A stretch of DNA of 64,000 nucleotides from Malachius bipustulatus. Taxonomy: Eukaryota; Arthropoda; Insecta; Coleoptera; Melyridae. The position numbers were made by a program, and so were the translations under genes. Location of the stretch: NCBI GenBank assembly GCA_910589415.1, contig OU342638.1, positions 1,550,001-1,614,000 of the forward strand. Reading direction: 5' to 3'. Each line of letters opens with the position of its first letter. Within the stretch, counting starts at the first letter, position 1. Positions 13,393 to 63,450 of the stretch are shown piece after piece. The notes beneath the pieces are model-generated. The model worked only from the letters and a program-made list of their open reading frames with translations. It had not been told where the DNA came from and made no database searches.

Positions 13393-13701
13393 TCAGAAAA
13401 GCCGTAAGTAATTCACAGTAAGTAATTCTTCAGTAAATAATTCACAAAATATACTTATTGGGGATTGAGTGTCTACTTCAATAGATGGTCCAAATGTCTG
13501 TGAAAAGATTGCAGCGTTGTACTTCTCTGGAATGACATCAGTTTTGTTCCAGTTATATACTGGCATATTAGATGAAGGCATTTCTTCATCAGATATGGAA
13601 GATGAACTGTCTGATAAATCCTCATGTAAGATTGGTCTTTTTTTTTCCGATCGGTTCATAATTTGAATCGTCAGAATCAAAGTCTGTAAAACTTTGATCA
13701 T
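13393..13701 (-). pseudogene. piggyBac transposase N-terminal fragment
   Basis: About 100 codons. An acidic Ser/Asp-rich start (EDLSDSSSSISDEEM) is followed by a block ending SPISIFCELFTEELL, which matches the piggyBac pattern of an acidic N-terminus followed by P-x-x-x-F-x-x-x-F-x-D/E-E-L-L. The sequence is lost right after this block, so only the N-terminal tip remains. No catalytic aspartate is present. It sits 3' of the macrodomain gene on the same strand. Confidence 0.65.
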
Positions 13702-13815
13702 GTATGGTATTCGAAACCCCTGATGTCGAAGCTACTGCTATAGGAGTGCCACTTCTAATTAAGTACATAATAACACAAAAAAATATTGTACATATTCGAC
13801 CAAACTAACAACATA

Positions 13816-13821
13816 TTTATT
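13816..13821 (-). other. Candidate polyadenylation signal for the macrodomain gene
   Basis: AATAAA on the minus strand about 90 bases after the stop codon of the OARD1-like gene. Position and sequence fit; use is unproved. Confidence 0.4.
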
Positions 13822-13911
13822 ATTGTGTCAAAAATACCTACTAGGTACATATAATAATATAATAAAAATGATAATAACAAATGATAAAAATAAATTAAAA
13901 TTAAGAAAAAA

Positions 13912-15891
13912 TCAAATGCAGAAATATAGGGAGCAGGGGCTGTCGGCGAAGATATAAGATATCATCATCTTAATGATCACCCAAGATTTGCGGTCACGAC
14001 CGCAAGCTATCTTAGGAAGCCCAAGCTTGGTTACTCCATGTATGTCCAAAAGTCTTTTCAGGTCCATAAGACCATATGAACTAGTGATGGGCAGAATCGA
14101 ATACTTTCAAGAATCGAGACCTCAGTACTCGAATACTTATCAGAATCGAATACTTCAGTATTCGAATACTGACGATACGAGTACCAGACCAAAGATCGAT
14201 TCTGCCGCGCTCGGGACTCCGGAATCGGGCTGTTGCCGATACCTACTACCTACTACTACTACTCGAATGCTTCAGTATTCGAATACTGACGATATGAATG
14301 AGTACGAGTACTACGAGAACAAGGATAAGGATCGATTCTGCTGGTCGAAGGTCGAAGCCGCTTGACTGGCTTGACCTTGATTCCTATTCCTGCTACATAG
14401 GTCCCGCATTGACTTTTCCCGAAGTTGTCTTAGTTATAGGTACTTATTATTATTAATATTATTATTAATACGAGGATCGAGACAGAGACGGAACTTAACA
14501 AATTAACTTTTTTACTATAACTAATATTATTATGGTATATCGGGATCGCGTTGAATATTAACTAGCAGGTTACCTACCTATAGGTATGACCTTATAATTA
14601 TGTGAACTTCATTTTATTTTCAGTACACCAAAAACTGTTAGTTGGATACAATTATTATTATGGGCAGATACCTACCTAGCTGATCTGTATGAAAAATTTA
14701 AACAATTTGATCTTTTTGTATAAGTAGGTATATAGGTAAAATTTTAAGGATAATAGTAATGTTGAATTATTAATTAAAATAATTACTTAAATGACTGCGA
14801 AAGGTACCCATATTCAGTACATATTCAAGTCATTAAAAATTATTAAAATTAAAATTAAAACAAATGAATGATGATACGGTAGGTACCTAGGTAGGTAAAA
14901 CACATTTTATTTTATATTTGGAATGTGAGATTAAAGATAGATTTCATATTTCATCTAGTCTATAAGCGACTGCAGTAGTTTGTAGACAATACAACACAAT
15001 AATAAAAATAGAAATAATAGCGGCAATCCGGCAATGCAATAAATATGGACACGATTAGGAGTTCCGATTTCACATCCGAGAATCGAGACGCGAGGCGAGA
15101 CCCGAGACATTCATCATCCCATCGGAGATCTTGTACTCGTACTCGTATTTTAGTATTCGAATTCTTTTCTGACGTCGAAAATCGCCGATCCCACATCCGA
15201 GCCGAGAATCGATCCACGATCCGAGACATAAGACAAGAAGCGAAGCGACCATCCGAGATCTAGTATTCGAATGCTAGTACTCGAATGTTTTTCAAGTATT
15301 CGAATTCTGTTCTGACGTCGGAATCGGCAAGAATCGATACCACCGAGTACTTGAGAGAATCGAGACATGCGAGTACTTGTGAGAATCGAATACATCTCGA
15401 TTCTGGTATTCGAATACTCCCAACACTAATATGAACCTATATTTCGGCTTTTGGTGGTATTTTTTTTTGGTAATCAAATAATAAATGTATCTATTGTTGT
15501 CCGTAAGATGCACCACTTTTCCAACTTTTCCCTTCTGCTCACTCAAGTTTCCCACTCGTCCAAACTTCTTTCTGAAAACAAATCATCAAATTAGCACTTG
15601 ATAAAAAATAGGACATTATTCGAATTTATTAATCACCACTGTGACATGACACACCTTAATCTAATGAGCCATTTTTTGGAGTTTATGTAAGTATGTATTA
15701 AAATTTAAACGAAAAAAAAGAAAGAAAATTAAGCAATAAAATCGTACTTACTTGAAAGTGACAGCAATTCCGGCCGACATGTGGAGGTCCTCCGAGACAC
15801 AGTGCGCCAACGAATGAGTGTGGTCGAGAGTGAAGAGGTCCCTATCCTCATAGATCATTGTTGTCCTCTTCGGGACAATACTCACACCCAT
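13912..15891 (-). pseudogene. OARD1: OARD1/TARG1-like macrodomain gene split by an hAT insertion
   Basis: Two exons. Exon A (15752-15891) encodes the macrodomain start, with DRDLFTLDHTHSLAHCVSED and MSAGIAVTFK. It ends at a canonical donor (CAA then GTAAGT). A 180-bp intron follows (15572-15751, acceptor TTTTCAG). Exon B continues KKFGRVGNL, RYIYYLITKKKYHQKPKY, then, beyond the hAT element (14082-15428), LGLPKIACGRDRKSW and a stop at 13912-13914. This order matches ADP-ribosyl-acylglutamate hydrolases of the TARG1 type. The start at 15891 is a guess; coding may extend upstream. Odd points: Ser replaces Gly in the M-x-A-G-I-A-V loop, there is a one-base frame change near the insertion point, and the 1.35-kb element sits in the last exon. 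It is a host gene that is dead or dying in this haplotype, or mis-assembled. Confidence 0.8.
14082..15428. mobile_element. Non-autonomous hAT element with a perfect 8-bp target duplication
   Basis: Ends read TAGTGATGGGCAGAATCGA (left) and TAGTGTTGGGAGTATTCGA (right, reverse complement). ATATGAAC is duplicated at 14074-14081 and 15429-15436, and 8 bp is the hAT signature. Both subterminal regions (14095-14345 and 15085-15420) are packed with palindromic GTATTCGAATAC and with AATCGAGAC-like motifs. There is no transposase; the open frames inside are repeat artefacts. Confidence 0.93.
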
Positions 15892-16910
15892 TCTTACACA
15901 CTCCCAGAACCTCCTGTAGTCCGCGTCAACCGTTCTCTGTAGTCGTGGATTCCTTGAGACAAAATAAAATTAGTGTTCTCTATGATAAGTCTCACTGTAC
16001 CGGATGGGCAACTATAAGAATGGACGCCAACCATATCTCAGGAACACAGCTCTGCCCTAATATAGCAGAACATAGTAACTCATATTTGACCAATTTTGCA
16101 GGAGGAGAGGTTTCTTAAAATTTTATTGCCTTACGATTGCTAATACATATAACTGCAAGTTAATTTAAGTTGGTACCTTAGTATTTTTTTACGCTCTATT
16201 TAGAGACATGGATTTTAGGAAGATAAAATGTCAAAGAAAGGCCCAAAAATCAGTTGCTGTTGCTAGTCTATTTTCGATCTCAAGTGAATCTTATTATCAG
16301 ATGAAAATTATGTAAAAACTTGTAACTACACCTACTAGGTTTTAGTAATAATTATTGTTTTTTGGGTTTGAAATGAATTTATAGTGAATCGTAACTCAAG
16401 TTACTAAGTTTTGAATAAAGCATAAAGTAATGAAATTCAATGTATAGTTTGTTGTAAAGTCAAGTTTTATTTATAGTTAGATAGGACATAACTTATTTTT
16501 GACTTTGTATTTATTTATAAAGCATCAACAATAATAGTCAAATTATTATAGAAACTTGCAAACTTACCAACGATTAATACAGCCCTGTAAATTAATTCTG
16601 CATCTGTTATTTTATAATAAATCAACAATTTTTATTAATAAAAAAACTTTATTTATTCAATAATTATTTTGAAATTCTGAAAACTTAAATGCAGTTTAAC
16701 GGATAAGAAAAAAAATATATAGTTATTCATTTTATATACTTAGGTATAATAAAAACAAAATTATATACTTATTCATTTTATATACTTAGGTATAATAAAA
16801 ACATTATTGAAAAATTATTTTTCTGGCACATTGCACAAGTCTGGTGCATTGTCATTAATTGGCATACATTGCCAAAACAATAATTTTTTTCTTTCATTAG
16901 CAAATAGCGA
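15892..16910. other. No recognised gene; small tandem duplication
   Basis: AT-rich. Upstream of the macrodomain gene it may hold its promoter, but no motif stands out. A 46-bp offset tandem duplication containing TTTTATATACTTAGGTATAA lies at about 16723-16804. Confidence 0.45.
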
Positions 16911-18103
16911 TCAATCAACTTCTGTAAAGTTTTCATCTGATATTGAATTTTTGAAATATAAGCTTTTGGATCCTTTTCTGAATTGGATTATTTTTACTGA
17001 ATCTAAAAGAGGAATATTTTTATTCTTCCTTTGCTTACATCCATCAGAAAAAGGAAAGAAGTCAGTGAAATTTAAACTCACACATTTAGTTTTGCGAGAG
17101 GAATCTTCAATAATGTTCAATAAGTGATTAAAATCATAGATGTTTTCATGTTTTTTCATAGAAGTACTGATGCGGCCATGCACTGAATCGGCAGCCATAA
17201 ATGAATGTCCTGGTTCAAAATATTTCACAGTAATTTCTTCTGGGCCCCACTCAGCATTAACAAAACAAACAAAAGAAGTGTAAAGTGTCCAATTTTTGTT
17301 CTGAGCTGAACAATTATCAGCCCAAAATATAAATTTGGTAACTTTTCCATCAGATTGTTTGATTAAGTTATAATATGCTGAAGTTACATCTGCCGCTGTT
17401 CTTCCGCGAATGGCCTCATGCCACATGACACAAATATTTTCGTCCAGTTTTAATGAAGCAAACGTTTCGTTGAAGACAACTAACCTGAAAAATTATTAAA
17501 TAAATACTAAATAAAAGGTATACGATTTAAAATCTTCGGTACCTTGAAACGAAGAAGGATTTTTTTGTTGACATTTTGGGAAGCAATAATACTTTTTGCA
17601 TGTCAACACTATAAATTTTCCCGTTTTCGTCTGATGTTTTCTCTTTATCAAATTTATATGCTTGCCTGGCTTTTGTGTATCGAATCTTGTGGTCTTTAAA
17701 GCGGATACACCGAGGGATACACTTAGAACAATCTTCTAAACAATCTTCTTTTTGGCTATCAACATGAGTTATATTTTGAAGACACACCTCACATTCGTCT
17801 TGAGATGGACGACTAAATCCAATATTTTGTTTATAAAATATTTTTCTGTATAAATCATACAATATTTTATTATTATGTTCACAAAAATCTTTCCAAATAA
17901 ATTTTATAGTCAGCTCAGGAGACAGATAACGTCTATGTGGCGAATGTGCCAAATTATAGTGTGAAACAACTGGGTTGAATTAATTTATATGTCTAATTAT
18001 TTTTTCTCCATTTTCTTCTTTTATTTGTAAAATACTTCTAGAAATAAGTCCTCTTTCATCTAATATTTTCCCCATACCATCCTCGCTAGATCTCTTTGAT
18101 CTA
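16911..18103 (-). pseudogene. DNC-x-[GA]-QNKN-family transposase-like gene, copy 1
   Basis: Two exons on the minus strand. Exon 1 (about 17543-18103) holds a Cys-rich zinc-binding-like block (CEVC, then CLEDCSKC). The intron at 17485-17542 is only 58 bp, with GTACCG donor and TTTTCAG acceptor, and preserves phase. Exon 2 starts with FNETF, WHEAIRGRTA, then ADNCSAQNKNW and KYFEPGHSFMAADSVH. An in-frame TAA lies at 17980-17982 and a TGA near 16910 shortens the tail. The family is repeated twice more in this window (22566-24025 and 49190-50430). I think it may be a Sola-type DNA transposase because of the DNC-x-x-QN-x-N box, but that is not certain. Spliced structure shows it was once a real gene. 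Confidence 0.6.
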
Positions 18104-18757
18104 AAATAACTAAGTAGTGATAATTCCATCAGTTTTTAGTCCCAGAGAATGCAAAAACATGATTTTACACACTGGTATTATCAGTATCATTGACAGGTAA
18201 ATAATATTTAAATGTATACTGTCTGGGAGCAGCAACTTAGTAAATTAAAGGTTACCTACCGCAATATATCACTTGTTTGAGTTGTTCATAATCACTGTGT
18301 ATGTATCACTGTTAATACTCGATCTAATATGTGTGTAATCGAGATTTAATAACGCCGAGGAAATTTTTCTTTTTTAGATTAGGTATCTGTTAGTCTTACT
18401 GTTCTCTTCTGGTATAATACTTATAATTAAATTAAAAAGCACTTTCATTTTGTAATACTATGATATAATATGCGTACCGGTAAAAATCCATGAAAACATA
18501 TCACAATCGCTTGAACAAGAAGTATGAATAGTAGTTACATAAGTTATACATATCAGTTAGGTACAGCAGGTATAAGTTATATGTATTTATGCAAAATGCC
18601 CGTGTACAAATAATACAAAATAAATATACCTAATACTATACTCTATACTTTGTATATAATAATTACAGAGGGAGTGATTTTTTTGGTTTTCTCGTTTTTT
18701 ATGGAATGAGGTTTTTTCGCCAAGTCGTTAAACTCCACCCACGCTCCAGAGATTTTT
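18104..18757. other. No recognised gene
   Basis: AT-rich intergenic sequence between two minus-strand fragments. No motif seen on either strand. Confidence 0.4.
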
Positions 18758-21054: not shown

Positions 21055-22375
21055 CTAGGTACACCAGTGAAGAATTGAACACAATTTAAAATACCTACTT
21101 ATTTCTTCTACAGGAATGCCATTTCCTAACCCATACTCCCTTATTTCAGCTCTAACGAGCAATTTATTGTAAGCAGCCTGACATTGCCTAGCTGTAGGAT
21201 TATTATTGTTCCCAAATCTCGAGCGAATTGAAGGAAAAAATAATTCTACATGGTCTTGGTTCACTTTATAAAGAGGCAAATATTTCAGTAGATTATTATT
21301 TTCCACCAATCGTGAAACATTTCACTTGCATTATTTAAAGCACTAATAATTCCAGTGAAACCTGTTTTTCTGTTTGAAAAAATTACATACTGACCATTAA
21401 TAAATTTCAGCTGTTTGAAGTAGTCAGTAACTACATTTTTTATATATTGACGAACTTCATTAATATTTTTCAAATTTAAAGCTTTTTTTAAATAAGGAGC
21501 CTGTAATGATGCACTGTTCAATATATCAAATGCATTATTTACATGCTTAATAAACTGGACAGTCGCCTCACAGTTCTTGAACTCAGTCAAATGTAACTTA
21601 TTGTTACAAAATGTGATAGCATCGGCTACCGAGTCACTTAATAACTGTGCTGCTAACTTGACTTTCATTTTTTGTTGAGAGAAGTTAACATGACTGGACC
21701 GTAATTTATTTCCCAAATGCAAGAGGGTATCTAGATACAGATGCATTCAATTTTTAAGTATTTAGAGCCTCTTCAGTAAAACCTGGAGACCCATTCACAA
21801 CAGAATACCAAGCACTTAGTGTTCGTGGATGAGGAAGGCATGTGTCAAATACTTTACGTATATAATTATATGCTTTAGGTGAAAAGAAATTTACTGTTAA
21901 AGCAAACTTTCTCAATGGTGCAGGATACTTTCTTTCAAGTTTACCTTTTTTTACTTTAGTTACTTGACGTTGAAGCAGCTCTTTAACACTCTCATTAAAA
22001 CTTTTGAATATCAAATAATTTTCATGCTGAATCAGATTTACATTTTTCAATTCTACCAACATTTGACTCAAGTTTGCAATTTTTTTTCAAATGCAATTTT
22101 ACCTGTTGTAAAGTTTTTATTTTTCGTCTTTGGTGCTCACATTTCTTCTGGAGTATGCTCAAACGGCGCTTCATCGAAGGTAAAAGCTTTGCGGACGTTT
22201 CTATAGACCTCCTAGAAACTGTAGCCACATCTGCAGTAACATGTAAAGTTGGTTCTGCAGATTTCTCAGTCGTTGCAGGAACCATATCAACATGAATGTC
22301 ATTTTCATGAAGCATGGATGCTTCCACCACTGGCACGACATCGGATATTGTTTTAGTTTCTAATGTTGGCAACAA
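21055..22375 (-). pseudogene. P-element/THAP9-type transposase, copy 1, internally deleted
   Basis: Four blocks in order on the minus strand. A basic coiled-coil-like region (LQKKCEHQRRKIKTL), then the P transposase block YPAPLRKFALTVNF with SPKAYNYIRK and LPHPRTLSAWY, then KMKVKLAAQLLSDSVADAI, then NRKTGFTGII and KVNQDHVELFFPSIRSR with NNNNPTARQ. The segment between the second and third blocks, which should hold the catalytic core with its Asp residues, is missing. The frame changes near 21750 and 21300. The THAP zinc finger expected at the N-terminus was not found. It is a defective relic, probably once a cut-and-paste transposase. Confidence 0.8.
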
Positions 22376-22565: not shown

Positions 22566-24025
22566 TCAATCTTCATAGCCGCTACTGTTATCTTCCTCAT
22601 CGATATCACCCAGGTCAGCGTTGGCTTCCAAGTTAGCTCCCAGGGAATCGTAGAATGCCCGATTTGCTTGTATGCTTAAAACACCACTAAGTTTCTTCAA
22701 GTCGTCAAGTTTTAATGGATTGATTGGAATCGGTCGATCATACATAGGGAAAAGCCGGAAAAGCTGAAGGGCATTTGTCAAGGGGTGCTTATTCCTTATT
22801 ATTGATTGCCGCCATGGTCCAGAGTAACTATCCCTCACTTCCAAAAACTTGTTACATACCTGAATGCGGTACATACGTAAGGACTTCAGTTGAACCGGTG
22901 GTCGTGGGTTCTTGGTAAAAAATTTGTCCGTTGACAATTTGAAGTTAAAAACGTCTTTTTGTTGCACCTTTACAAGTTTAAATGGAGATGGCTTTTGACG
23001 GCAAGTTTTAATAATGTTGTTCCAGTGTTCAGGTATTTTTGCAGTTTCTGCCGCTTTTCTTTTAGAAATTACTGAAAAGTCCTGGTCATTCGGAAGAAAT
23101 GAGTGCCCCCGTGTGGGAAATATGTAAGTAATACTATCAAACAACTTCAAGTGGAGTGCACTAGTATGTATAGAAAGTGCACCATGACATAATTTTTATT
23201 CTGACCTGGACATCCATCGCTTAAAAGAACCAGGTTCCTTGAAGTAATGTCAACCACTTTTGTGAAATAGTGAAATAAAAACGATGTGACCTCGTTTTGA
23301 CCTTTTTTGGCAGTACATTCATTATAAACGTACATTGAGGCACTATGGTCAGCTAGGTTGTGGACGCCGAAAACATAATACCACAAGTGACGACAACGAA
23401 ATGCTAAATTATTCCTTATGTGTGGGAGTGGAAGATTCTGCATATAATCAAAGCATACAACCATTGCTTCACCTCTCTTCGCTTTCATTTTCCAACTCCT
23501 CTTAAGATCGTAGAAGGCTTTTGCTTTTCGTAAATGAAGCTCCTTTTCCGTTTCTAAGGCCGTCTTTACTTCATGGCTTTCTGCTGCTGCAATTTTTTGT
23601 ATGAGTGAATCACAAACAGTACACGTATCAGTTCTCGGCAAACCCTATCTGATGTTGAATTTAGAATGAAAAATATGCCAGTACACCTTGTACGAAACTT
23701 GAACCCTGTATTCTTCTAAGAAAAGTCTGTACATTCTCCTAACACTCAGTGTTTCTGGTAAGTAATATCTATTTGGATTTTGTCGCAGTGAATAATGCGA
23801 CTGTCTAAGCTTAAAAGACCTGATGTGGTCTTCAACTAAGCGTCTTATTTCCGCAGGTGTTGATTTAGGTCTATTTTTATGCTGCCCTCTTTTATCTACT
23901 GGTGATTTTAAAAATTCACACAGTAAGTGCTGTTTTTGCAGAACAGCAAGTATTTCTGACCACAGAATAACCCTGACAGAAGCTGTTTCTGCAAGAAACA
24001 TTTCTTCCACAGTTAGATACAACAA
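22566..24025 (-). pseudogene. DNC-x-[GA]-QNKN-family transposase-like gene, copy 2
   Basis: About 480 codons in three pieces. N-terminal part: NPNRYYLPETLSVRRMYRLF. Middle: PRTDTCTVCD (zinc-like), CFDYMQNLPLPHIRNN and LLSDGCPGQNKNYV, where DGC replaces the DNC of the other copies. C-terminal part: FPTRGHSFLPNDQDF followed by a basic region and an acidic end (DLGDIDEEDNSSGYED). An in-frame TAG lies at 23645-23647 and there is a one-base frameshift near 23150-23165. It is more distant from copies 1 and 3 than they are from each other. The same layout (zinc block, D-x-C-x-G-Q-N-x-N box, GHSF box) suggests one superfamily. Confidence 0.6.
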
Positions 24026-26560: not shown

Positions 26561-26725
26561 CAGTTCTATCCAAATTTCTCTAGATTTCGATATGATACAT
26601 TTGATATAAAACACTTTTTGTGCAGCTTTACAAACACAAAATCTGTTGAAACCACCCAAATTTTTTCGTTCAATCAAAGTTGACCGTTCAATTTTTTCTG
26701 AATTTTTAATAACTGTTTGACAGTA
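26560..26725 (-). pseudogene. P-type transposase, C-terminal piece left of the foldback
   Basis: The product includes TLIERKNLGGFNRFCVCKAA then QKVFYIKCIISKSREIW, which matches the LI-x-R-K-N-x-G-G and C-K-x-A-x-K-x-F blocks near the C-terminus of P/THAP9 transposases. It begins exactly at the TA flank of the foldback (26724-26725). I read it as the continuation of 35132-35443 across the foldback insertion. The border with the hAT fragment is uncertain by about 50 bases. Confidence 0.5.
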
Positions 26726-27535
26726 TACAGGGTTACTGGTAACTGGATACATTCCTTTGGTGATCTGATAAAACAAGAGGTAAGGAGTAAATTAACCCCA
26801 ACATGCACTATACAAAACTCAATAGATTTTGAGATATTTCGATTTTCAACTTTTCTTAAAAAAATGGTTTCAGATGTCTCGAAATATAATTTTCAAAAAA
26901 TCTACTTTAACTTTTTGATTTTTTTTTTTGCTGGAATACTTGTCCAATACTATGCTTCCTTCTGAAATAAAAAATATCCTGAGGTATTTCGATCGTGTGA
27001 AAATTTCAAAGAAAAACTTTCACAAACTATTTTTTTTAAATAAGATTTAAAAGTTTTTACAAGTTTTTTTCGCAAAATTGCCAAGGCAACTTGCGTACAA
27101 ATTGTTTTAAAAACTTCCCTAGTGTAGTAGCTATCTAACAAGGTACGAATCTTGTACAAGAATAACAGAATCTCCCCGCTATGCACCGTTACCGAGGAAC
27201 AAATCCTTAAGTCGGGACGTTTTAAAAAAAATACGGCCCTGAACGGGGGTCTTAAAATTCTCGGATCCGGTCCATTTTCAATAGGTCGTATTTGGGGGTC
27301 ACGAGCTTCGTCCCTACCAATTTTCGTCCCGATCGGTAAAACTTTCAGACACTTAGAGTGGCTATTACTAGGCTATTCCCGAAAAATCCCGAAATTCCCG
27401 AAAAAATGACACTTCCCGGGAACGGATCCCGCTCATTTTCAATAGGCATCGTGCCACGGTGCGCCTCTTCAATCGAGCCAAATTTCAACTTTCCCACATG
27501 AAAACTGGCGGCTCTAGAGTGTTTCCTAGCAAAGT

Positions 27536-27562
27536 CACAGACAGACAGACCGACAGACAGAC
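27536..27562. repeat. GACA-type simple repeat in the foldback loop
   Basis: A short run of CAGACAGA and CGACAGACAGACA units at the centre of the foldback, between the two arms. Confidence 0.7.
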
Positions 27563-27962
27563 ATTTTTCGGGCACAAGAATACGTATACTTACGAAACTT
27601 CTGTGACTTTGCTAGGAAACACTCTAGAGCCGCCAGTTTTCATGTGGGAAAGTTGAAATTTGGCTCGATTGAAGAAGCGCACCGTGGCACGATGCCCATT
27701 GAAAATGAGCGGGATCCGTTCCCGGGAAGTGTCATTTTTTCGGGAATTTCGGGATTTTTCGGGAATAGCCTAGTAATAGCCACTCTAAGTGTCTGAAAGT
27801 TTTACCGATCGGGACGAAACTTGGTAGGGACGAAGCTCGGGACCCCCAAATACGACCTGTTGAAGATGGTCCGGATCCGAGAATTTTAAGACCCCCGTTC
27901 AGGGCCGTATTTTTTTTAAAACGTCCCGACTTAAGGATTTGTTCCTCGGTAACGGTACATAG

Positions 27963-28185: not shown

Positions 28186-28190
28186 AAATT

Positions 28191-38186: not shown

Positions 38187-38188
38187 TA

Positions 38189-49189: not shown

Positions 49190-50430
49190 CTTCAGTAAGC
49201 GTCCCTTAAATTCATCCAGAATAATTTCCTGTTTTCGGTCATCAGAGGCCCCAATCCAGATAAGATTCCTTGCTTTTTGGCAACTGGAATTCCTCTTGGC
49301 CCGACACACAATTTTTCTGATATTTCTAGCCGATGTTTTTTCTTCAAGAAATTATATTCCCGGAATACCTGGTCCATCGAACTATTTTTGTTATGTATAT
49401 TAGATGGGTTTCTTCTGAACTGGATGACAGAAACACAGCACAGAAGAGGTCGATTATTTTTTTTTCGATTTTGAATCGCCTGATTTCCAGTCCAAAATGC
49501 CTTCGTTGTCTAAGCATACAACGTTCATTTTTTCCCCGTTAGAATTTTGAGCCGCACCAACGAAGTCATTAAAATCATATAGATTGCCCATGTACTTCAT
49601 GCTTAGTTTAACGCCATGATGAATAGAGTGTGCCCTGCCCTCAAATGTGTGCCCTGCTTCAAAATATTTCAACATGATATCTTCAGCTGCAATTTTGTTG
49701 GAATTTACTAAAGTCAGCAATGCGGTAAACAATTTCCAGTTCTTATTTTGCCCTGAGCAATTATCCACCCAATAGACGAAGTGAAAGACGTCCCGTTCTT
49801 CCATCAATGCTCTGTGATAGCAGGATGCTATTTCTTCTGCTTTTCTGCCAACTAGTGCCTCATGCCACAAAACTGATATATTTTTCTTCACGCCGCTACA
49901 TTTTGGATCTCTCATTAGGGGAAATGTTTGGTGGAAGGCGACTATTCTTTTTGTAAAACATGTTTTCTTGCTGCCTGGAATTCGTGGTAACATGATAACT
50001 TTTTGTAAATCTACACTTCAAAAACTGATTTCTTCTTTGATACATGATTCTGCTACGTCTTGCCTATATTGATCTCTAGAAATTTTAACTTTCCTTGCAT
50101 GCTCCAAAAATTTTTTGTAGATGTTACAGTTTTGAAATTTTTCAGAATTTTTACATCTAGTATTCATGACACTTTGTTTGTCGTTAATATTGACTTCTAC
50201 CTCTTTCTGATTTTCTTTTTGTTTTTCACTTTTGTTATTATTACTCTCTGGTTCATTCTGATGATTTCCATCAGTTTCATTTGCCAGTCCTGTAGGAACA
50301 TTGGTACCCTCACCGCTTTCATGAAATTTTAAGTGTTGATCTTGGATGACACAATGGCCACATTTTTCGTGTCCCAGTTTTGTAAAACTGATTTTTAATT
50401 CATCAGTTACCACTTTTTGGTATGTTTTAA
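49190..50430 (-). pseudogene. DNC-x-[GA]-QNKN-family transposase-like gene, copy 3
   Basis: The N-terminal part has KLGHEKCGHC (zinc-like) and a Lys/Glu/Asn-rich linker. The core has SVDLQKVIMLPRIPGSKK, WHEALVGRKAEEIASCYHRA, WVDNCSGQNKNWKLF and KYFEAGHTFEGRAHSIHHG. The C-terminal part reads CCVSVIQFRRNP and SEKLCVGPRGIPVAKKQGIL. An in-frame TGA near 50015 and a frame change in a nine-T run (49457-49465) interrupt it. The order of blocks matches copy 1 (16911-18103), but there is no intron between the zinc and DNC parts here at the place where copy 1 has one. Confidence 0.6.
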
Positions 50431-50539
50431 ACAATAAATAACAAACTAAATAACAACAAATAAATAGACAATAAAATAAACAAAAAAGTATTGGAAAATT
50501 TAAGTTGGCACCCAAACTAAAGCCATAGATTAATTGGTT

Positions 50540-51045
50540 GCAGCTCCATCAAATGGTAAAGAAATAAGTCATATTATTCCTGCAATGTGTAACATTTTAC
50601 AGCAACCTTTCACTAAAGTAGCTTTTTCTGAAGCAGTTACAGAGTTTATCAGAAAATACCCTATTGGTACTTTCCACTGGCAATTTACACCGACTAATAA
50701 AAAAACTAAAGCTTCTCTTGCTAAAGGGAGTGAGTCATTATCCAGGTTGACACCAAAGTTAATATACCCTATATTTCTTCCAACTTGCCAGTCTACATGT
50801 TGTCTAATAGACATTTCGTCCATGATGAGGGAACACACTAGATCTTTCCCTTGACTTTTAAGCTCCTGAGCTTTAATTTTTATCGCCGTGAATCCTTCTG
50901 AAGTATATCCTGGAGAGGCGTCAATGGAAGAATACCACTTCCTAATGGTACTTGGATGAGGCAAGCAATTACCAAATTGTTTTCTAATATAATTATATGC
51001 CCTGGCAGAATAAAAATGCAATGTTAGTGCAAATGCTCTCAGATC
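50540..51045 (-). pseudogene. P-type transposase, N-terminal half, rearranged copy
   Basis: Product: LHFYSARAYNYIRKQF, LPHPSTIRKWYSSIDASPGY, LIMDEMSIRQHVDWQVGRN and VGVNCQWKVPIGYFLINSV. These blocks belong to the first half of the P/THAP9 transposase. On the minus strand this half comes after the C-terminal half (51045-51640), the reverse of the normal order. The border near 51045 has a run of nine T. Confidence 0.75.
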
Positions 51046-51640
51046 TGGAGAATTTTTTTTTGCTCACATTGCTCACATTTAATCCTTTTACTTAATTTCT
51101 CACTAACAAAACCTGCAATATAGGTATCTACTTCTGAACTATACAATGACAAATTATCGTCGTGAAATGCGTACGTATGGTCCTGTAAAAATTTGTAATT
51201 ATCAGATTCAGCTTCTGTTATTTCTGATATTAATTTTTGGTTGGGCAAAGTTTCATTAATAATTTCTTCTGGCGGTTTATTAAAGGAAGAAACATTTAAA
51301 ATATTAATTTCATCTAAAGGAATGCAATTTCTAGCTCCTCCATCTCTTACTTCTGCATCTACTTTCGAGTATCACGAGCTTTTTATCGGCAGATGTAAAC
51401 TGCCTACGAGTAGGGTTGTTATTATAGGCCCCCCTGTGATCTGACCTCGGATCTGACAGATGAAAAAAAATTCTAGGATATTTTTCTGCAAGTTCAGACC
51501 TCATTCCCAGTAAACTTTTAAGGCCGATTAAGCCTAGAAAACCAATTTTTCTGTTTGAATATAAAATGAGGAATTGTGCTGTGGCAGAAAGATCTGAAAG
51601 ATATTTTCTTATGGAAATCTACAATTTTTTAATACATCAT
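51045..51640 (-). pseudogene. P-type transposase, C-terminal half, rearranged copy
   Basis: In two frames: SNRKIGFLGLIGLKSLLGM, then GAYNNNPTRRQFTSADKK, then YIAGFVSEKLSKRIKCEQC. These are C-terminal P/THAP9 blocks. They precede the N-terminal half at 50540-51045 on the same strand, so either two truncated copies lie tail to head or the gene was circularly permuted. Confidence 0.7.
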
Positions 51641-51801: not shown

Positions 51802-52599
51802 CCTACATACCTGTGAAATTTTAACTTAAACTTTTTTGTTCTCCGTGAAGTACAATTTATAGCTGAACAGGAGGACTCAACCATTTTTAAAACAACTGAT
51901 ATTAAGTATCTAATAATTAAATTACATTAACTCTCAAGTCTAAAACTTAAAATAGTGTATTTTATTATAAAAATACACTAATAAAAAATTCGTCTGTGCA
52001 CTAAAAATAAGTCCACGAGTCCAACTGCTCACAAGCAAGGAATTAAATGGCTGGCTGACTTTGAATTTTGATCTTTCTGCCCTGACTAGCACCATCCTCT
52101 CTATCTGTCTCACTCTGGAATCGATCGATGCACGCTATGGCTTGTCCATTGGTATTATAAAGTCAATGGTTTTAACACTCGACTATTTTTCGTGAAATTG
52201 CGGTCACTTAAAATAGCTCTAATAGTCCAATGTTATGTCATTTGTTTCAATGTAGCCTAGGGTGGCAAGGAAAAATGTCTTACACACCTGGACAGATTGG
52301 TCATCTAGGGATTTTAATGAATATTTGTTAGTACATGAATTGCGAAAGAATAGTATTGCGTTTTTTATTCAATATCAACACACCCAAGAACAAAAATGCT
52401 TTCTGTTCTTGAGATTGAAGTTCTCAATATTGTGAGTTAATTGGTACACGCCTGTCCTCTGGTATTTTTTCAGTACCTACACTTGAGCCTGCATGTTGCA
52501 TGACAACCTTCAATAACTGGATGTGTTTGTTTAACTATCAGTCTTTTAATTTTCTTTCTTTCCAAATGGTTATGAAAAAAAAAAGAAATATTTGAGAAT
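51802..52599. other. No recognised gene
   Basis: AT-rich with a GC-richer part near 52040-52150. No coding motif seen on either strand. Confidence 0.4.
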
Positions 52600-53656
52600 A
52601 GAAGTTATCAGCAAATAATATTTTACCAGATATGTCCCTAACTCTGCTTTCAATAGTTTGAGAACAATCGATTGAGAATGCCCCAAGCCAGCTTCCGTTT
52701 CACCTTTTCCAGTATAAATAATCACATTGGAAGGTATATCCTTCCGGTGAACAAAGCTTTATATAATTTTACTCCATATTTATGGATTTTGTTTGGGATG
52801 TATTGCCGGAAATGGAGTCTCCCTGTGAATGGTACCACAGATTCATCAATAACCAGAATGTTACCAGGTTGTAGAACTTTCTGGAAATTTTTTAGCAATT
52901 TTGAAAATATATTGTCAATTTTATGCAGTCTGTTTGATCGATCAGAAGTTTTATTGTTCTCAAAATGAAGAAGTTTTAACAGCAGTAGATATCGATCCCC
53001 GCTCATAACACTTGCGATGAATTTATTGAAAAATATGCCGTCTTTGGACCAATAAAAATTGATATGGGGAACTTGCGTAAGGGCCATGGCTATAGTTATG
53101 CCTAAGAAGGCCTAATCTCATTTTTATTTGTCGGGATCCACGAGTTCAATCTGGATTTTTTAGAATGCCGAATTCCAAGTTGCTGAGCGGCATAATTGTT
53201 GGTTTCGGTAACAATAATTTCCAGGATCTCATCAGTGACAAACAACTGAAAAGCATCTAGGGGTTTTGTTATCTCAGACTTTATCTCAGACATTATCCTC
53301 TTCCAGATCATACCATTGTTCATCATTCTCATTTTGATTAATTATTTCTTCTTGTTCATTTATTGTTGTAAATTCTGCTACATCGCTATCATTATATTCA
53401 GAAGACTCTGAGGAATCGGGGACATAATTTTTATCTAAAACACTATCATCACTGCTCTGTGGATCTTCTATTCTATACTATTCTCATCCGATCGGATAGA
53501 TGACCTACTATTATTGTCTATTTCTGTTTGCATTTTATTATCATTTATGGTTTCTACTTCCATTTCATCTTCGACTCTTTGTTCTCTTTCAACATCTTCA
53601 ATGTCATTCACATTACTGTTTCCATTATTAACACCTTCATTAGCTTCTGGTTGCAT
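52600..53656 (-). pseudogene. piggyBac transposase fragment, fourth family
   Basis: Acidic N-terminus (to about 53285), then PLDAFQLFVTDEILEIIVTE, FLGITIAMALTQVPHINFYW, GDRYLLLLKLLHFEN, VIDESVVPFTGRLHFRQYIP (first catalytic Asp) and KYGVKLYKA. In a shifted frame follow YTGKGETEAGLGHSQSIVLK and, after a gap, FADNFYSQ (second catalytic Asp). Sequence beyond that is lost. At least four frame breaks are needed. A 12-bp duplication GTCTGAGATAAM lies near 53270-53293. Similar in pattern to PGBD4-like proteins. Confidence 0.85.
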
Positions 53657-55641: not shown

Positions 55642-57397
55642 TTATGCCTTCTCGGTAAATAATATTTTCATCAAATTTTCTAGGGGTATAATTTTCTTAA
55701 AACTTCGTACCTGGGTGTGGTCCATTTCAATATCATATAAATTTTTGCTTACATTAATGCCAACAATTAAATTACTAATATTTTTTACAAAAATATCTTC
55801 CAATTTATTAATAAACTCCTGGAATGACTGATGTGGCATTTTTAAATTGCCAAAAAAGTAATTATTCTTATTTTGGTAGGCTTTGAAATAACAAAACAAG
55901 TTTTGTTCTTGAAGAGATGTAACTTCTTTTGAAAATTCATCACATACCTGACAGGTGTGAATTTGCAGGCACTTTTTAATCAAGTAGCCACATACATAGT
56001 TGAGGGCATTAGCTGCAGGCATGTTGTTACGGTAATCCGTTGTATTGACTGGTAGTGCCCTGAACAAATTGGATTTGTTATACTTATACACTATTTCTTG
56101 ACTGCTACTTGCATTCGATATGGAAATATTATGATTGTCATTATCAATTAATCAAAATCATTAACACAATTTGCATTACTTGAGTGTTTGTTCTAAGTAA
56201 TGCAAACAGTAAAGTTTTTAAAAAGCCCAGACAAACTGCATGGGAGTAGGGTTGAACGAACTACCATTCTGCTGCCGAACTGTGCAAAAATAATTTTCCA
56301 AACAGTCTTGGTTTAACCACCTTGTCAACAAGTAACTAAACTTCTGTGACTTCACATAGCTGCATCACTGACGCGATTGTCAATTGAAGACATTTTAGGC
56401 ATTTCCGAGTTTTTGTGACATATTTGCCATTTGTGCCATTTGCCATACTTTGGGCTCTTAAATTTCAATGAATTTAAAATATTGAATAATTTGTCACACA
56501 TTTCAATCAATTCGGCAGTTCCCATTGCAAACGATGAAAGATTATTTAAACTCACGTAAGTATTGAGAACAGCTGCCACTGACTGACTCAGTACTTGGAC
56601 AGCAAGCTTGACCTTCATTTTTTTAAACTGCCTGGGGAACATGTACGCATCAGATAATTTTGGTAGCATGTCTTAGAGCTTGTTTCTTATCTACATTATA
56701 AACATGTTGTATGTGGTCGAACGATGCAACCTTTCCATCGAAATGAAAGGTGTGTTGCAGCAGCATGTTACGAACTGCTTTAAAAATATGCGGAGTATCA
56801 AAGATATAAAACACCTTCTTACGAAGACACATTTAGCGCAACGGACAGTTTTATAAAATTGGAACCCATATCGGATACCATGCTGCACACAATAAGCCCA
56901 ATTTGTTGTAATTCACCTATGCAAGAGATTATTGTCTGAGTCAGTGTTTCTCCGCTAAAGTTTGAATTAACAAAAAAATATGCTAAGGGCTGCTTCCAGC
57001 GACTGTACAAACCTCGCGCCATAATAACAGCAACAGTTTTTGCTGGTAGAAGTGTTCTTCTACCTGCTATATCCTCTAACCCTACAATTTCATCTCTGTT
57101 TAGACAAAAAAATAAATTAGACTTCAAGGACATTTCAACACAGATAACACAATATCTAGAGGTTTTGTCGAGCCTATCTATTTTAAATTTCAACGCCTTC
57201 ATCAACGTATGCTGTATTCCAGCACTAAAATTAAAATTTTTGGTAATCCTGCGTAAGGAAAGTTTTGACGGTAAACAGAACACTTTTTCTAGGAATTTAT
57301 AAACTCTAGGGCCAAGAAAATATACTGTCAGAGCAAACTGCTTGAACTCATTCGAATACCGGTTGCATTTGGAGTTTGGCTTCAGACTGAGCTGCAT
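55642..57397 (-). pseudogene. P-element/THAP9-type transposase, longest copy
   Basis: Blocks in normal order: YSNEFKQFALTVYFLGPRVY, FLEKVFCLPSKLSLRR, VICVEMSLKSNLFF, ARGLYSRWKQPLAYFFVNS, VSDMGSNFIKLSVAL, KVFYIFDTPHIFKAVRN, KMKVKLAVQVLSQSVAAVL, LNQDCLENYFCTVRQQNGSS with FNPTPMQF, and NALNYVCGYLIKKC. The D of SDMG sits at a catalytic place, while the earlier DEM is VEM here, so one Asp is replaced. Frame changes occur near 56825, 56660, 56350 and 56095. No THAP finger was found upstream. About 585 codons in total. Confidence 0.82.
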
Positions 57398-57859
57398 TTT
57401 TGTGAAACGGGAAATGTTTGGTGATAAAAATGTATCACTCGGTTTGATTGGTCAAGACTGATGTTGCCTGCATCCACTAATCATTATCTATAAAAAAAAT
57501 AACACGAGACAACAAATGAACGCAATACAGGACAAAAAAATTCAGTGAATATTTAATTGTATATTATTGGTTTGTAATATGTGCAAATAACAGTGAAAAC
57601 AGGTCAGTGCTTTAGGTAAAGTGATACTTTTGAATCAAGTTTTTGTGAATTTTCATATAATTAAATATGGAAGTATTATTTATTACCTTCAATTTTCCAT
57701 GTGCCAGACGCACTTGGCATACACAGTTAGTTCATCATTGGAATTGGAATCAGAATTCAATGGCGCAGCTCACTCACTCGATGGACCTGCCACGGCTTCA
57801 GGCTCACACGGATTTGAGATGTTTCCTCCTACAAATATTAATAACGGTAATAATATTAA

Positions 57860-59051
57860 TAAATATTATTACATTTCCGAATGTGATCGACTGACTGGTT
57901 CAAAACTAAATTCAACTTATGGGCATAGCAATGAACAAAAATAGCTTGTTTATATTTTTCTCTGATTAGTGTCGGAAGCCCGCTATGTTCACCAGTCATT
58001 ACTGCTGCTCTGTCTTACGTTTGGGCAATAATTTTTTCGCTGCATCCAAACTCTTCAATGTGTTTAAAGACTAGCTCAGATAAACCAATTGCAGTACGGT
58101 CCTGACTTACATTTTCAAACCTCAAAAATGTCTCTTGAACATTTACTTCATCTGTAACATATCGAAAAAGAGCTGAAAGCTGGGATATGTTGGAAACATC
58201 TGTAGTTTCATCCATAATAATTGATATAAAAGAAGAAGCCTTCATTTCATTTTTTATTCCATCAGTCATAAAAAGGCTTACAGACTGTATTAAATCATCC
58301 TGTATATCATTAGAAGTTCCAGAAAAGACCTTAGAATTTTGTAAATGATGCTTCAATCTCTCGTTTTGTTGAGATAAAAGATGCAAAAGCTCTATGTAGT
58401 CCCCCTATTATCGGAATCAGATTTTTCATTGTGGCCCCTAAAAGCAAGTTTTGCAAGCCAAGGAAACGGACTGCATCAATTAAACGGTTGACAATATGCC
58501 GATTTATCTTTACATTTTCATTAAATTTTTGCACCTCATTCTTAAAAGCTTCACTTAAACAAAACTCTTTTCTAGTTTTGCCAAATTTGATTAGTTCCAT
58601 TGAAGCTGTGATGTGGACGTTTTTTTAAATTTTGGAAATTATTTAAGTCACTAACACCTGATTTATTCCAAATGTTTTTTTCAGAACAAAATAAAATGCA
58701 CGGCCAACAAAACATTTTTTTTTTATGTTTACAGCCAGACAACCACTGAATTTCCGTGTACCAACTATCTTTGAAATGATGGCTATATGTTTTTTTCTTG
58801 TCTTTGGAAACTACAGACATATCAGTTAAATGTTTTTCCCTGACCTTAAAAGGTCTTTCCTGACTGATAATTAATTGTTTTCGGGAAAAACTGCAATGGC
58901 TAAATGGGCGCTTGAATAAATCTTCGCGAATACATCCACAAGAAGTATCAGTGGTTTTTAAATTACTTGCGTTTTCCATAATAAGAGTTATTCTGAGAAT
59001 ATAAAACACTAAAAAGAAATATACCTGCATTAGAACTGAAGAATAATACAT
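57860..59051 (-). pseudogene. hAT transposase (DUF4371-type), N-terminal two thirds
   Basis: A TTF-type zinc region: HFKDSWYTEIQWLSGCKHKK, FCWPCILFCSEKN and FQNLKKRPHHSFNG. Then LIPIIGGLHRAFASF and the DUF4371 block: FSGTSNDIQDDLIQSVS, FISIIMDETTDVSNISQLS and LFRYVTDEVNVQETFLRFEN. Past an in-frame TAA near 58015 come DRAAVMTGEHSGL and FVHCYAHKLNLVLNQS. DETTD and DRAAVMTG mark the catalytic region. The C-terminal dimerisation block is missing. Frame change near 58600. Confidence 0.85.
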
Positions 59052-59370: not shown

Positions 59371-59900
59371 TTGTGTTCAGCTACTAGGTAATGCAGACGT
59401 CCTTTAATTATAAGTATTTGATCTTTTCCCTGTGTTACCTAAATACTTATTTGTCATCCTTTCACGTGTGGAATAATTCTTTTGCTTTACCATCTCATAT
59501 ATTTTCACCTTTTCTTTAAATACCATGAAATTCTTTGCACCCCAAATAATAACTTTATCAACTTGAGTGCCAGTTATATCGTCGCTATCCAGTCAAAATG
59601 TGCTATGGGGAAAATGCAAATTTTAGAGGAGCTTGAAAAAACCTTCACATTTTTTAACTGTTGTTACCAAAATGTTTTTGGTAGCTTTTCTTGAAATAAG
59701 TATTGTTATTGTTCAAGTAAAACATAAAATTGTGTGACAACAATTTATTCATGAACTTTATAACAAAAAAATACATTTCTGTCTTACATAGTAGCTTTAG
59801 GGTGTAAAATAATGCCAGAATGCCACTAACTTATTTATAATTATAATAGCAGTTAGTAAAGTAAAAGTGATGAACAAAAAAAAAATTATTATTCGCTGTG
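59371..59900. other. No recognised gene
   Basis: AT-rich; part of the left half may belong to the same gag relic, but no motif is certain. Confidence 0.35.
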
Positions 59901-60800
59901 AAGGGAATCATAAAATGGATGATACTCAGCAGGAAGGGTTGATTTCAGTTGCTGCAGGTGTTGCATCTTGTCTTTTCTATTTAAACGCAAGGTTTCTGTC
60001 ACATAAGTTTACCTATGTCGCAGTTCCTGGGTTCGCCTTACACTATTGTAAAAATTATCCATGAATAAGGCATGACCATTATCAAATTTTTCTGTTCTAA
60101 AGCCAATACAAATTTTTCGGTGTGTCCTGGTAAATTGGGGTCTGCTGTACTCTAATATCTTCAAAGCGGTACCGGTACCATTGGGTTCACACAAAACATA
60201 AAGCTTAATCCCGAATTTATGCCTTTTGCCTCTTATATATTGGCAAAATTTTAGGTGCCCCCTCCACAAAACCATAGATTCGTCAATGGATAGTTCTAGT
60301 TCCCTTATCGGATAATAAATTTCTAACATTCTGTTATTATAAAAATTTATGATAGGCATAATTTTTCCAAACTGAGTTTGTGGTTCTAGAGTGTCAGTGT
60401 CTTCAAACTGCAAGCTTCTTAAAATTAGCAAAAACCGATTACGGCTCATAATAGTTGAAAAACATCGTAAATTAAATAGATGATTCGTTTTCCAGTAGTC
60501 GTTCATTCTATTCAGTTTTATTGTTCCCATATGAAAAAGTAATCCTAAAAAAATCTTTATTGCATTTGGAGTAACATCAGTTCAACCAGCTATTTTCAGT
60601 TCCGGACACGGAACTTCAGTATATCTCCAATCATTGTTTTGTGCACCAATTGGATTTGTGTTCCATAGAGAATGGCTTTGTGAAGGTGGTGGCAAAACTG
60701 TAGGGGAAGGAGGACGAAGCAGCACTTGCCGAGATTGAGAAGAAGAGTCTATGTCTTCGGAATCATCACTTTCGGTCTCGTAATAGGATCATCGTCGCTA
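59900..60800 (-). pseudogene. piggyBac transposase fragment, fifth family
   Basis: N-terminal acidic/Ser-rich block (ESDDSEDIDSSSQSRQV), PSQSHSLWNTNPIGAQ, then IKIFLGLLFHMGTIKLNRMN, FLLILRSLQFEDTD, LSIDESMVLWRGHLKFCQYI (first catalytic Asp), KFGIKLYVLCEPNG and HALFMDNFYNSV (second catalytic Asp), then TYVTETLRLNRKDAT in the same frame after an in-frame stop. An in-frame TGA lies near 60577. The third Asp and the C-terminal domain are missing. Confidence 0.85.
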
Positions 60801-61700: not shown

Positions 61701-62352
61701 TCACCAGATACTTTTTGATGGTCTGCCCAACCGTCTACACAAATTGGAACTTCTGTCTTCTTTATTGGATTTAATCAAGGTTAACGCAAGGTCGGTCTTA
61801 AAATTCTCAATTTTGATCTTCAAGAACTCTATCACTTCGTGTAAAATTCCAGGAGAAAATTTGAAACCTTCTAGCCTTCTGCTAACCGCTCTTAAAGATG
61901 GGAGTGGATATTTTTGCTTCCTTAATAAATCGTAACCAGAGGACCCACATGCAAACTTCAACTGAATGGCTTCTTTAATTATTGTATTATTGGACCACTT
62001 CATCCACTTGAAATTTTTTCTTTGCATAGCAGAAATCTGATCTTCGTGAAAGATGTTCTTCAGCAGTTTTGCAGATTTTTTATATTCCTGGAGATCCTTT
62101 TTAAATTGTAGTAATTTTTCCTTCATTTTGGTAATGGTTTGATTTTTTGAATCTGAACTTTTGAATGCAGAATCTGAACTCTTCTCAAACATTTTCGTCG
62201 GGTTGAAGACATTCTTCAACAGCTCTGTTGACTCTCTCCTGGCTTTTGAAGTGACTTGGATACAAGCATATGTTCGCCCGCAACCAAGTGTACGGTGTTA
62301 GAATCACACGATCCTCAAGCTGGATTATGTGAAACTTCTTTTGAGAAGCCAT
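61701..62352 (-). pseudogene. DUF4806-like start joined to a P-type N-terminal region
   Basis: From 62352, 56 codons read KFHIIQLEDRVILTPYTWLR, then HFKSQERVNRAVEECLQPD, resembling the N-terminal block of DUF4806-type insect proteins; it ends at a TGA where Trp is expected (about 62185). In another frame (61701-62219) come a coiled-coil-like Lys-rich region, WSNNTIIKEAIQLKFACGSS, YPLPSLRAVSRRLEGFKFS and GILHEVIEFLKIKIENF, a block found N-terminal in THAP/P-type transposases. Either a chimeric protein or two neighbouring relics. The similarity calls are from pattern memory. Confidence 0.5.
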
Positions 62353-62491
62353 TACTGTAAGACCAGTTATTTGTGTATTATCACATATTCAGAGTAATAT
62401 TATGTAGTATAATTTGTACCTAATGGCTAGTTAGTTTTCAGTCTCACATAACAACAATAATTGTCTTCTGTGATTTGTGATAATAGATTGA

Positions 62492-62728
62492 GGGCCGGTT
62501 GTTCGTACGTCAGTTAAAAATTTTGAGATAACTACTGATTTTAAAATGACCTGTATTATCAAACCATTGGTCTGATATTTCTGAAAATGAATTCTGCTCG
62601 CTTTGAGAAGAGTTAATTACTGATTAAAAATACAAGATCATTAATTATATTCGCCGTATTTTCAAAATTTGCAATTTAAAATCAGTAGTTATCTCAAAAT
62701 TTTTAACTGACGTACGAACAACCGGCCC
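62492..62728. mobile_element. 237-bp MITE with GGGCCGGTTGTTCGTACGTC ends
   Basis: Inverted repeats of about 50 bp (GGGCCGGTTGTTCGTACGTC then AGTTAAAAATTTTGAGATAA) with a 3-bp duplication TGA on both sides (62489-62491 and 62729-62731). A 3-bp target fits PIF/Harbinger-like MITEs. The end resembles that of the 9154-10557 element. Confidence 0.85.
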
Positions 62729-63000
62729 TGAATGAATTATTTTCTTCATTGTTTGACTGATGTTGTGACATATCGAAGTTTATTTCTCTATATCTTTTTA
62801 TCAATTGCTGCAATGGTCTTTCATTTTTCCACAGGTATTTTTAATGCTAGACCTTTAATTTTCAAATTGAAAAGAATTGAGTTATCTAAAGAGCCAAACT
62901 TCTTTACATCAGCAGACAAATGCAGTAAGTTGTGAACATTGTGTGAGACAAAATGTTTTCCATAAATTACTTTGAAGCAAACAACAAAATGGTTTAGGAG

Positions 63001-63450
63001 CTATTCGGCATAATTAATGTCTTCCTGTCTGTTATTAGGCCTAATTAGGATTGTTATAGCCACAGTTAAAGTAATAAATTGTAAATATAATTTTTTTTTA
63101 CAATATTTTTTTAAAACAATGGGCCCTGTATACAAAAGAAAGTTTCTGAATTCTGTTGCTTTCCATTGAAATTCTTTTGGCATCGAATTTTTTAGAGAAA
63201 GGAAACGTTTCGATATTTTTTCTACTTTACAAGATCTAACCGACAAAGGCCCGTCTTTGATCCAAAGTAATATTAGTTTTTTTACTATCACTAAACAGAT
63301 CAGATGCATATCATCTAGCGGAACGTCAGTAATGCGTCCAAACCCAGGAACGTTGTATAAAATGATTTGTCCTACTTGAAAATCGTCACATGCATTACTT
63401 AAAAATTGACCATTTTCTCTCGGAATAGCAGCAGTATCTGAAAAAAACAC
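63001..63450 (-). pseudogene. Transposon-associated protein fragment of unknown function
   Basis: About 150 codons. Recognisable pieces are LKNSMPKEFQWKATEFRNFL, LLYTGPIVLKK and FITLTVAITILIRPNN. The K-A-T-E-F-R-x-F-L-L-Y-T-G-P block is one I associate with multicopy insect proteins linked to DNA transposons, of the kind that carry transposase-like domains. I cannot name the superfamily. It opens without an obvious real start, so it is an internal piece. Confidence 0.45.

Follow-up and report, generated by a model that had tools for sequence, protein, structure and literature searches.

A one-way transposon array beside a duplicated YARS2 locus in the beetle Malachius bipustulatus, candidate left terminus of a uni-strand piRNA source locus on the megabase scale

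The window considered here, a stretch of 64,000 nucleotides of DNA, comes from the beetle Malachius bipustulatus (assembly GCA_910589415.1, 544 Mb in 52 contigs) and corresponds to C16:1,550,001-1,614,000, C16 being contig OU342638.1. Near its left end lies a decayed plus-strand duplicate of YARS2, the gene for the mitochondrial tyrosyl-tRNA synthetase, and to the right of this duplicate extends an array of transposon remnants which are read almost exclusively from the minus strand. An earlier inspection of the bare letters, termed here the sequence-only reading, had noticed the common direction and proposed a uni-strand cluster for PIWI-interacting RNAs (piRNAs), in which one plus-strand transcript would be antisense to the inserted elements. 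Here, we present a count of the independent copies in the window and a comparison of transposon orientation along the chromosome and throughout the genome. The one-way arrangement extends over hundreds of kilobases to megabases and recurs on several chromosomes, and a duplicated host gene is located at its left edge in the window; neither was part of the sequence-only reading.

Between 13.4 and 63.6 kb, 17 independent minus-strand copies face a single plus-strand element, which belongs to the BEL type. The 17 comprise six P-type, four piggyBac and three DUF7869-type copies, as well as one copy each of a DUF4218-like element, a DUF4371 element, which we take to be hAT-type, an element without long terminal repeats (non-LTR) and a weak copia-type scrap. 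Where about 25 coding fragments had been named before, the minus-strand orientation stands and the independent number is lower, one split P element having been joined: its pieces at 35.1-35.5 and 41.2-42.3 kb are regarded as one, since the matched reference residues run to 402 in one piece and from 405 in the other, and judging by this sequence the element is split by later insertions. Left uncounted were a minus-strand frame at 26264-26791, which has no solved-structure match and a best Pfam E-value of 0.12, and a lone gag-type zinc knuckle of unassigned family at 59326 on the same strand.

The broken state of many copies was taken into account by a Pfam scan in which both strands were treated identically and stops were translated as X, by which broken genes were included; it covered 51 segments per strand over 7.9-10.9, 12.2-27.9 and 34.7-64.0 kb. 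On the minus strand, 12 families were detected: the piggyBac domain DDE_Tnp_1_7 in four segments, four P-transposase domains in three to four segments each, DUF7869 in three, RVT_1 and zf-CCHC in two each, DUF4371 and Pol_BBD in one each, and two weak zinc-finger matches. On the plus strand, no transposon family was found outside the BEL element, the sole match being a weak one to Alg14, which bears out the statement that BEL/Pao is the only plus-strand transposon. Some of the earlier labels did not survive: neither the scrap at 13.4 kb labelled “piggyBac” nor the “C19-like” pieces had a match in Pfam, and the minus-strand scan contained no Tigger-type family in place of the supposed Tigger piece. 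In 1-2.96 kb, no Pfam match was obtained on either strand.

Searches of the window with tblastn agree in direction. A set of 120 P, piggyBac and DUF7869 reference proteins produced 788 matches and a set of 94 further references, mostly DUF4218-like with a few P-type, produced 138, with no plus-strand match in either set; the description of nearly all transposon genes as minus-strand is thus confirmed. As the references had been picked as relatives of the minus-strand pieces, this result informs on those families only; the query for the second set included two plus-strand frames, and these recruited no reference matching the plus strand. Stop-to-stop frames right of 12.3 kb, without BEL, number 20 minus and 1 plus at a length of at least 150 amino acids (aa), and 39 minus and 14 plus at a length of at least 100 aa. 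Furthermore, database-derived P, piggyBac, DUF7869 and DUF4218-like proteins gave 13 match rows in the window and one in three 60-kb windows on C1 and C2 plus 30 kb, a contrast which is inflated because the queries are relatives of the window's own families. Asymmetries in skew and in poly(A) signals were uninformative, and tRNA and Rfam scans of the window were empty.

The tyrosyl-tRNA synthetase at the left edge has beetle proteins as its best species-named homologues throughout, down to rank 35. The C16 copy comprises the decayed gene (10836-12214), damaged by three frame changes and two in-frame stops, as well as flanking DNA, some 140 bp upstream and 1 kb downstream. Its parent on contig C14 is an open, single-exon plus-strand YARS2 (346027-347355), and the copy aligns to C14:345838-348295 over 2598 columns. 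Since the match begins some 140 bp ahead of the start codon and reaches 1 kb past the stop, the locus was copied as DNA; a retrocopy was considered and dropped, as the parent is intronless too and the match takes in flanking DNA. The duplicated 5′ DNA thus lies in plus orientation at the left edge of the array, where it may be regarded as a putative promoter.

The similarity to C14 extends into the array. Blocks at 351-360 and 370-380 kb of C14 match the window and its right flank with 84-96% identity in partly changed order and include P and DUF4218-like pieces, with one further P match at 69%. The interval 16051-61170 of the window (about 45 kb), in which 15 of the 17 minus-strand copies lie, has just 1.9 kb opposite to it on C14. 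Within the C14 stretches covered (341-361 and 370-380 kb), the four copies downstream of YARS2, at 354.6, 355.6, 371.1 and 374.3 kb, are all minus; for two of them, the insertion itself is shared with the window through the duplication. P matches at 0.418-0.421 Mb of C14 are minus as well, and a P copy to the left of YARS2, at 0.19 Mb, is plus. C14 therefore shows an intact upstream host gene that points towards antisense transposons located downstream of it. A mariner-like transposase fragment, named by eye, was also observed at C14:348772-349269 on the minus strand, between two blocks which on C16 are near neighbours.

Orientation in the whole genome was compared for P, piggyBac and DUF7869, the LTR families standing outside this test. 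The best 116-150 candidates per family were scored (116 piggyBac, 150 P and 150 DUF7869 places), so that old and short copies are under-represented. Merging of same-family, same-strand matches within 5 kb reduced the 416 places to 409 copies, to which the window contributes just three P copies. Pairs of copies from different families lie on the same strand in 39 of 41 cases within 50 kb, in 106 of 128 at 50-200 kb and in 167 of 232 at 200-500 kb. Altogether, 312 of 401 cross-family pairs within 500 kb agree, compared with 200.8 (sd 18.4) when the strand labels are shifted along each chromosome within each family, and none of 2000 trials reached the observed number. The result holds if C16 is left out (143/185; null 92.6, sd 8.1, reached in 0/2000) or if the window's copies are left out (312/398), and each of the three family pairs contributes to it (89/112, 128/176 and 95/113). 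Agreement is down to half beyond 500 kb elsewhere and beyond about 4 Mb on C16.

The C16 region from 1.55 to 7.55 Mb contains 49 copies, of which 46 are minus and three plus (43 and 3 without the window), and the first 22 copies, up to 3.97 Mb, are minus without exception over 2.4 Mb. The window thus marks where an orientation domain of megabase scale begins on the left, and the sequence-only question of whether the bias holds outside was answered by these family searches in the affirmative. The adjoining 20 kb on the left contain no copy; the 20 kb on the right contain five, all minus and most of them weak. Other uniform runs are located at 28.8-32.2 Mb of C1 (plus) and at 6.3-8.6 Mb (plus) and 10.3-11.5 Mb (minus) of C4. 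These runs were chosen by a model favouring uniformity, and the tally of 148 of 149 copies in domains cut in this way is descriptive only, the pair counts against the shifted labels being the fair tests.

The first 22.5 Mb of C16 harbor 104 of the 409 P, piggyBac and DUF7869 copies, whole C16 making up 7.4% of the assembly; this part may be a heterochromatic arm or sex chromosome. Intronless protein-kinase frames of about 350-480 aa were observed inside one-way domains, in transposon-dense blocks of C16, C6 and C17. Some of them score identically at different places, their orientation is often that of the domain (5 of 5 minus at 1.55-7.55 Mb of C16), and they may belong to a mobile element. 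Kinase-domain hits had been tried as a host-gene control (128 of 138 rows, ten second pieces of listed genes being left out) and proved unclean, several of them seeming to be multi-copy, intronless and inside domains.

Table 1. Features of the window, with positions counted from its first letter.
Feature	Position	Strand	Remarks
gypsy element, identical 300-nt LTR stretches, left of YARS2 duplicate	2965..7856	-	
DNA-level duplicate of the YARS2 (mitochondrial tyrosyl-tRNA synthetase) locus	10696..13251	+	89.5% identity to C14
C14 duplication continued, blocks 13750-14072 and 15429-16051	13750..16051	.	92% and 96% identity to C14:350937-351910
DUF7869-type copy 1	16818..18178	-	54-59% identity to the two closest references in most tblastn matches
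P-type transposase copy a, internally deleted	21088..22174	-	tblastn
DUF7869-type copy 2, divergent	23108..23905	-	22-25% identity, E 4.8e-10 to 7.2e-14
non-LTR reverse transcriptase, open 461 aa	24734..26119	-	PF00078 E 1.5e-31
palindrome A, left part, arms about 823 nt, termini TATACAGGGT	26724..27962	.	right part 34672-35131
BEL/Pao, young, open gag-pol frame	27963..34671	+	identical 223-nt LTRs, 5-bp target duplication CATAG
P-type copy b/c, C-terminal part	35119..35466	-	reference residues 405-476, continues at 41179-42331
palindromes B (35794-38188) and C (38185-39394)	35794..39394	.	
piggyBac copy	39434..40617	-	PF13843 E 1.6e-11
P-type copy b/c, N-terminal part	41179..42331	-	tblastn
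copia-type scrap, weak (zinc knuckle, Pol_BBD)	45478..45698	-	E 0.0006 and 0.0019, both below curated cut-offs
piggyBac N-terminal fragment	48329..48827	-	PF13843 E 5.3e-5 and 2.5e-6
DUF7869-type copy 3	49207..50437	-	tblastn
P-type copy d, N-terminal half	50515..51060	-	72% identity to nearest reference
P-type copy e, C-terminal part	51051..51633	-	24-33% identity; not colinear with copy d
piggyBac copy	52591..53320	-	tblastn
P-type copy f	55774..57421	-	tblastn; P-element transposase structure 6p5a E 4e-8
DUF4371 fragment, presumably hAT-type	58015..58404	-	PF14291 E 9.4e-10
piggyBac copy, best preserved of four	59898..60662	-	58% identity over 284 residues to P0123
P-type copy g, also in C14 paralogue	61701..62297	-	tblastn
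DUF4218-like transposase fragment, also in C14 paralogue	62727..63593	-	53% identity to P0243

Beside the counted copies, the window shows four long near-perfect palindromes, one at 9468-10114 and three listed as A to C in Table 1. All four have a common terminus, TATACAGGGT, and arms of about 146 to 890 nt, and the arms of the three largest are unrelated apart from the terminus. Their transcripts would fold into long hairpins and are a possible source of small interfering RNAs. For comparison, a miniature inverted-repeat transposable element of Rhodnius with TACAGGGTG ends is labelled Tc1-like with a question mark (PMC4678618). Related minus-strand frames at 19031-20075 and 54866-55015, which lack a Pfam match, lie upstream of DUF7869 copies; 19920-20066 and 54866-55015 match each other, and these frames possibly constitute a second gene of the DUF7869 element. 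The plus-strand match to the host gene Alg14 at 57798-58055 scores 22.7 bits at a cut-off of 27, is broken by stops and adjoins the hAT-type fragment.

Enrichment in transposon remnants and one predominant orientation are features by which uni-strand clusters are recognized, and both were found here, the former with the inflated contrast described above and the latter at 17:1 in the window and 46:3 in the domain. As the published uni-strand clusters of beetle, moth, mosquito and fly mostly hold transposons antisense to the transcribed strand, a cluster transcribed from the plus strand is the best reading of the locus. With a probability of roughly 0.6, we regard the window as the left terminus of a uni-strand piRNA source locus which is of megabase scale and anchored by a host gene. 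We infer that plus-strand transcription would start in or close to the captured duplicate of YARS2 and would proceed rightwards through transposons that are nearly all antisense to it. The resulting transcript would be complementary to the mRNAs of P, piggyBac, DUF7869, DUF4218-like, hAT-type and non-LTR elements and would be cut into piRNAs, and the bias would have arisen by selection, antisense copies being retained and sense copies lost. Of the sequence-only proposal, the one-strand layout has thus been substantiated far outside the window, and the cluster itself is the best reading and not a proven one.

A more specific history is conceivable and is offered as a tentative, rather doubtful extension: YARS2 itself may have seeded the defence locus. 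On C14, read-through from the gene would have turned the downstream region into a trap for antisense insertions; gene and array would then have been duplicated to C16, where the gene decayed, its promoter would still drive the one-way transcript and the array would have grown to megabases. With similar one-way domains on other chromosomes, giant uni-strand precursors of piRNAs, directed chiefly against DNA transposons, would then make up much of the transposon-dense DNA of this beetle.

Several observations weigh against a piRNA source locus of this kind. From orientation by itself, a piRNA function is indistinguishable from long one-way transcription of any other kind. The bias of the domain exceeds the per-insertion figure of 57.1% reported for uni-strand clusters of the moth Trichoplusia ni (PMC5844692), and the domain, at 2.4-6 Mb, exceeds the range of 10-365 kb in the beetle Tribolium castaneum (PMC5613491), although several clusters may be contained in it. 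The spacers contain 45 AATAAA motifs on the plus and 51 on the minus strand, which is no clear plus-strand depletion. From 7.8 to 13.7 Mb, C16 is only partly uniform, with 15 plus and 3 minus copies for P and piggyBac together and 5 plus and 6 minus for DUF7869. The null distribution is possibly too narrow, because segmental duplication leaves copies non-independent. Finally, the strand of kinase domains follows the local transposon majority to a modest degree, in 18/31 cases within 100 kb, 30/46 within 200 kb and 35/52 within 300 kb.

The same geometry would be produced by long one-way transcription without piRNAs, that is, by giant introns or long non-coding units that lose sense insertions, since the terminators and splice sites of these would interrupt transcription. 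Intronic transposons of mammals have been described as antisense-biased, which has been ascribed to selection against sense copies (PMC3517506, PMC3088655, PMC1794541), and the occurrence of one-way domains on several chromosomes fits this explanation. However, it needs one unit of megabases or many such units, and the scanned parts of the window contain no plus-strand host exon beyond the decayed YARS2 copy and the weak Alg14 scrap. The lack of clear poly(A)-signal depletion in the spacers and the higher density of these transposon families in the window than in the three 60-kb control windows speak against it as well, and we consider it unlikely. The simplest form, an intron of a spanning host gene, was rejected on the absence of exons in the scanned parts and the decay of the synthetase copy. 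Alternatively, a few one-way arrays may have been amplified and spread by direct segmental duplication, with blocks later flipped by inversions. The C14 and C16 loci are paralogous across YARS2 and array, most blocks at 88-96% and in partly changed order, and the C16 gene is a DNA-level duplicate, as such a structural origin would have it. Direct duplication preserves the relations between families, though, and should on average leave 50% cross-family agreement, not the observed 78%; moreover, the 1.9 kb facing the main part of the array lie between flanking C14 matches, and no direct repeat longer than 42 nt between same-family transposon copies was found inside the window. This makes the structural explanation quite improbable.

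Insertion polarity, by which elements enter in a fixed orientation to some local process, such as the direction of replication or transcription, and selection plays no part, would explain an orientation common to several unrelated families. It requires equal polarity of unrelated transposases, and the two young LTR elements (n = 2) are oppositely oriented, gypsy minus outside the edge and BEL plus inside, so that recent insertions need not follow the domain; we judge this explanation very unlikely. A chance run, selected by scanning many windows, deserves attention as far as the window alone is concerned: the ratio of 17:1 (two-sided p = 1.4e-4) is unexceptional in a whole-genome scan, since about 1.2 stretches of 18 copies with at most one opposite are expected per 20,000 random insertions. 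The case against chance rests on the genome-wide pair test. With 43 of 46 copies minus in the rest of the domain and other chromosomes behaving alike, chance is excluded unless copies are grossly non-independent, and its residual probability is close to negligible.

For the birth of piRNA clusters and the origin of their one-way transposon orientation, C14, with an intact gene and an array, and C16, with a decayed gene and a larger array, provide a two-stage comparison. Orientation alone exposes domains of hundreds of kilobases to megabases throughout the genome, common to unrelated DNA transposon families. Should small RNAs confirm the proposal, cross-family strand concordance would allow uni-strand clusters to be recognized in a sequence with little annotation, and tests of the trap model on DNA transposons would become possible.

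Among known systems, the clusters of Tribolium castaneum are mainly uni-stranded, with transposon open reading frames (ORFs) usually antisense to the dominant strand; Gypsy is the most widespread element, and active elements may occupy the opposite strand (PMC5613491). The present locus resembles them as a discrete, transposon-rich locus of a beetle with ORFs in one orientation. It differs in extent, 2.4 Mb without exception or about 6 Mb with three, and in the DNA transposons on which this extent was measured. Orientation bias also occurs outside flies in Trichoplusia ni, where uni-strand clusters carry 79.7% of transposon nucleotides in antisense and dual-strand clusters show random orientation; in the ovary, 67 loci with a median of 53 kb account for half of the cluster bases, and the most productive locus measures 264 kb (PMC5844692). 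Per insertion, the bias of the moth is weaker than that described here. Many clusters of Aedes aegypti hold transposons that are all or nearly all in one orientation (PMC3259105).

The likeness to flamenco that had been suggested applies better to the layout than to the content. As in flamenco and flamenco-like loci (PMC10643416, PMC11400887), the transposons mostly oppose the inferred transcription, and a single presumed start is located at one end. Flamenco-like clusters are rich in antisense Gypsy, the sole LTR family with a strand bias there (PMC10643416), whereas here P, piggyBac, DUF7869 and others carry the bias. Such richness in antisense Gypsy was not found in the window, where one clear gypsy lies left of the array, and the gypsy signal near the array amounts to one 36-bit match in the right flank. 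With the bias carried by DNA transposons and no clear Gypsy inside the array of the window, the locus may act as a uni-strand cluster without being flamenco-like. Host genes have been connected with piRNA production elsewhere: antisense insertions in host 3′ UTRs (untranslated regions) suffice for piRNAs in flies (PMC13226689), and host genes have been proposed as piRNA anchors in mammals by “promoter hijacking” (PMC13252550). Like such loci, the arrays described here have antisense transposons downstream of a host gene of the same direction, C14 with its intact YARS2 being an example; unlike them, the anchor copy on C16 is decayed and the one-way domain is far larger. In the literature searched, partly with other aims and with most subscription papers outside its reach, no description of comparable megabase orientation domains was found. 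A beetle precedent for uni-strand clusters exists in Tribolium (PMC5613491), from which the locus of Malachius bipustulatus differs in its richness in DNA transposons and perhaps in a megabase size.

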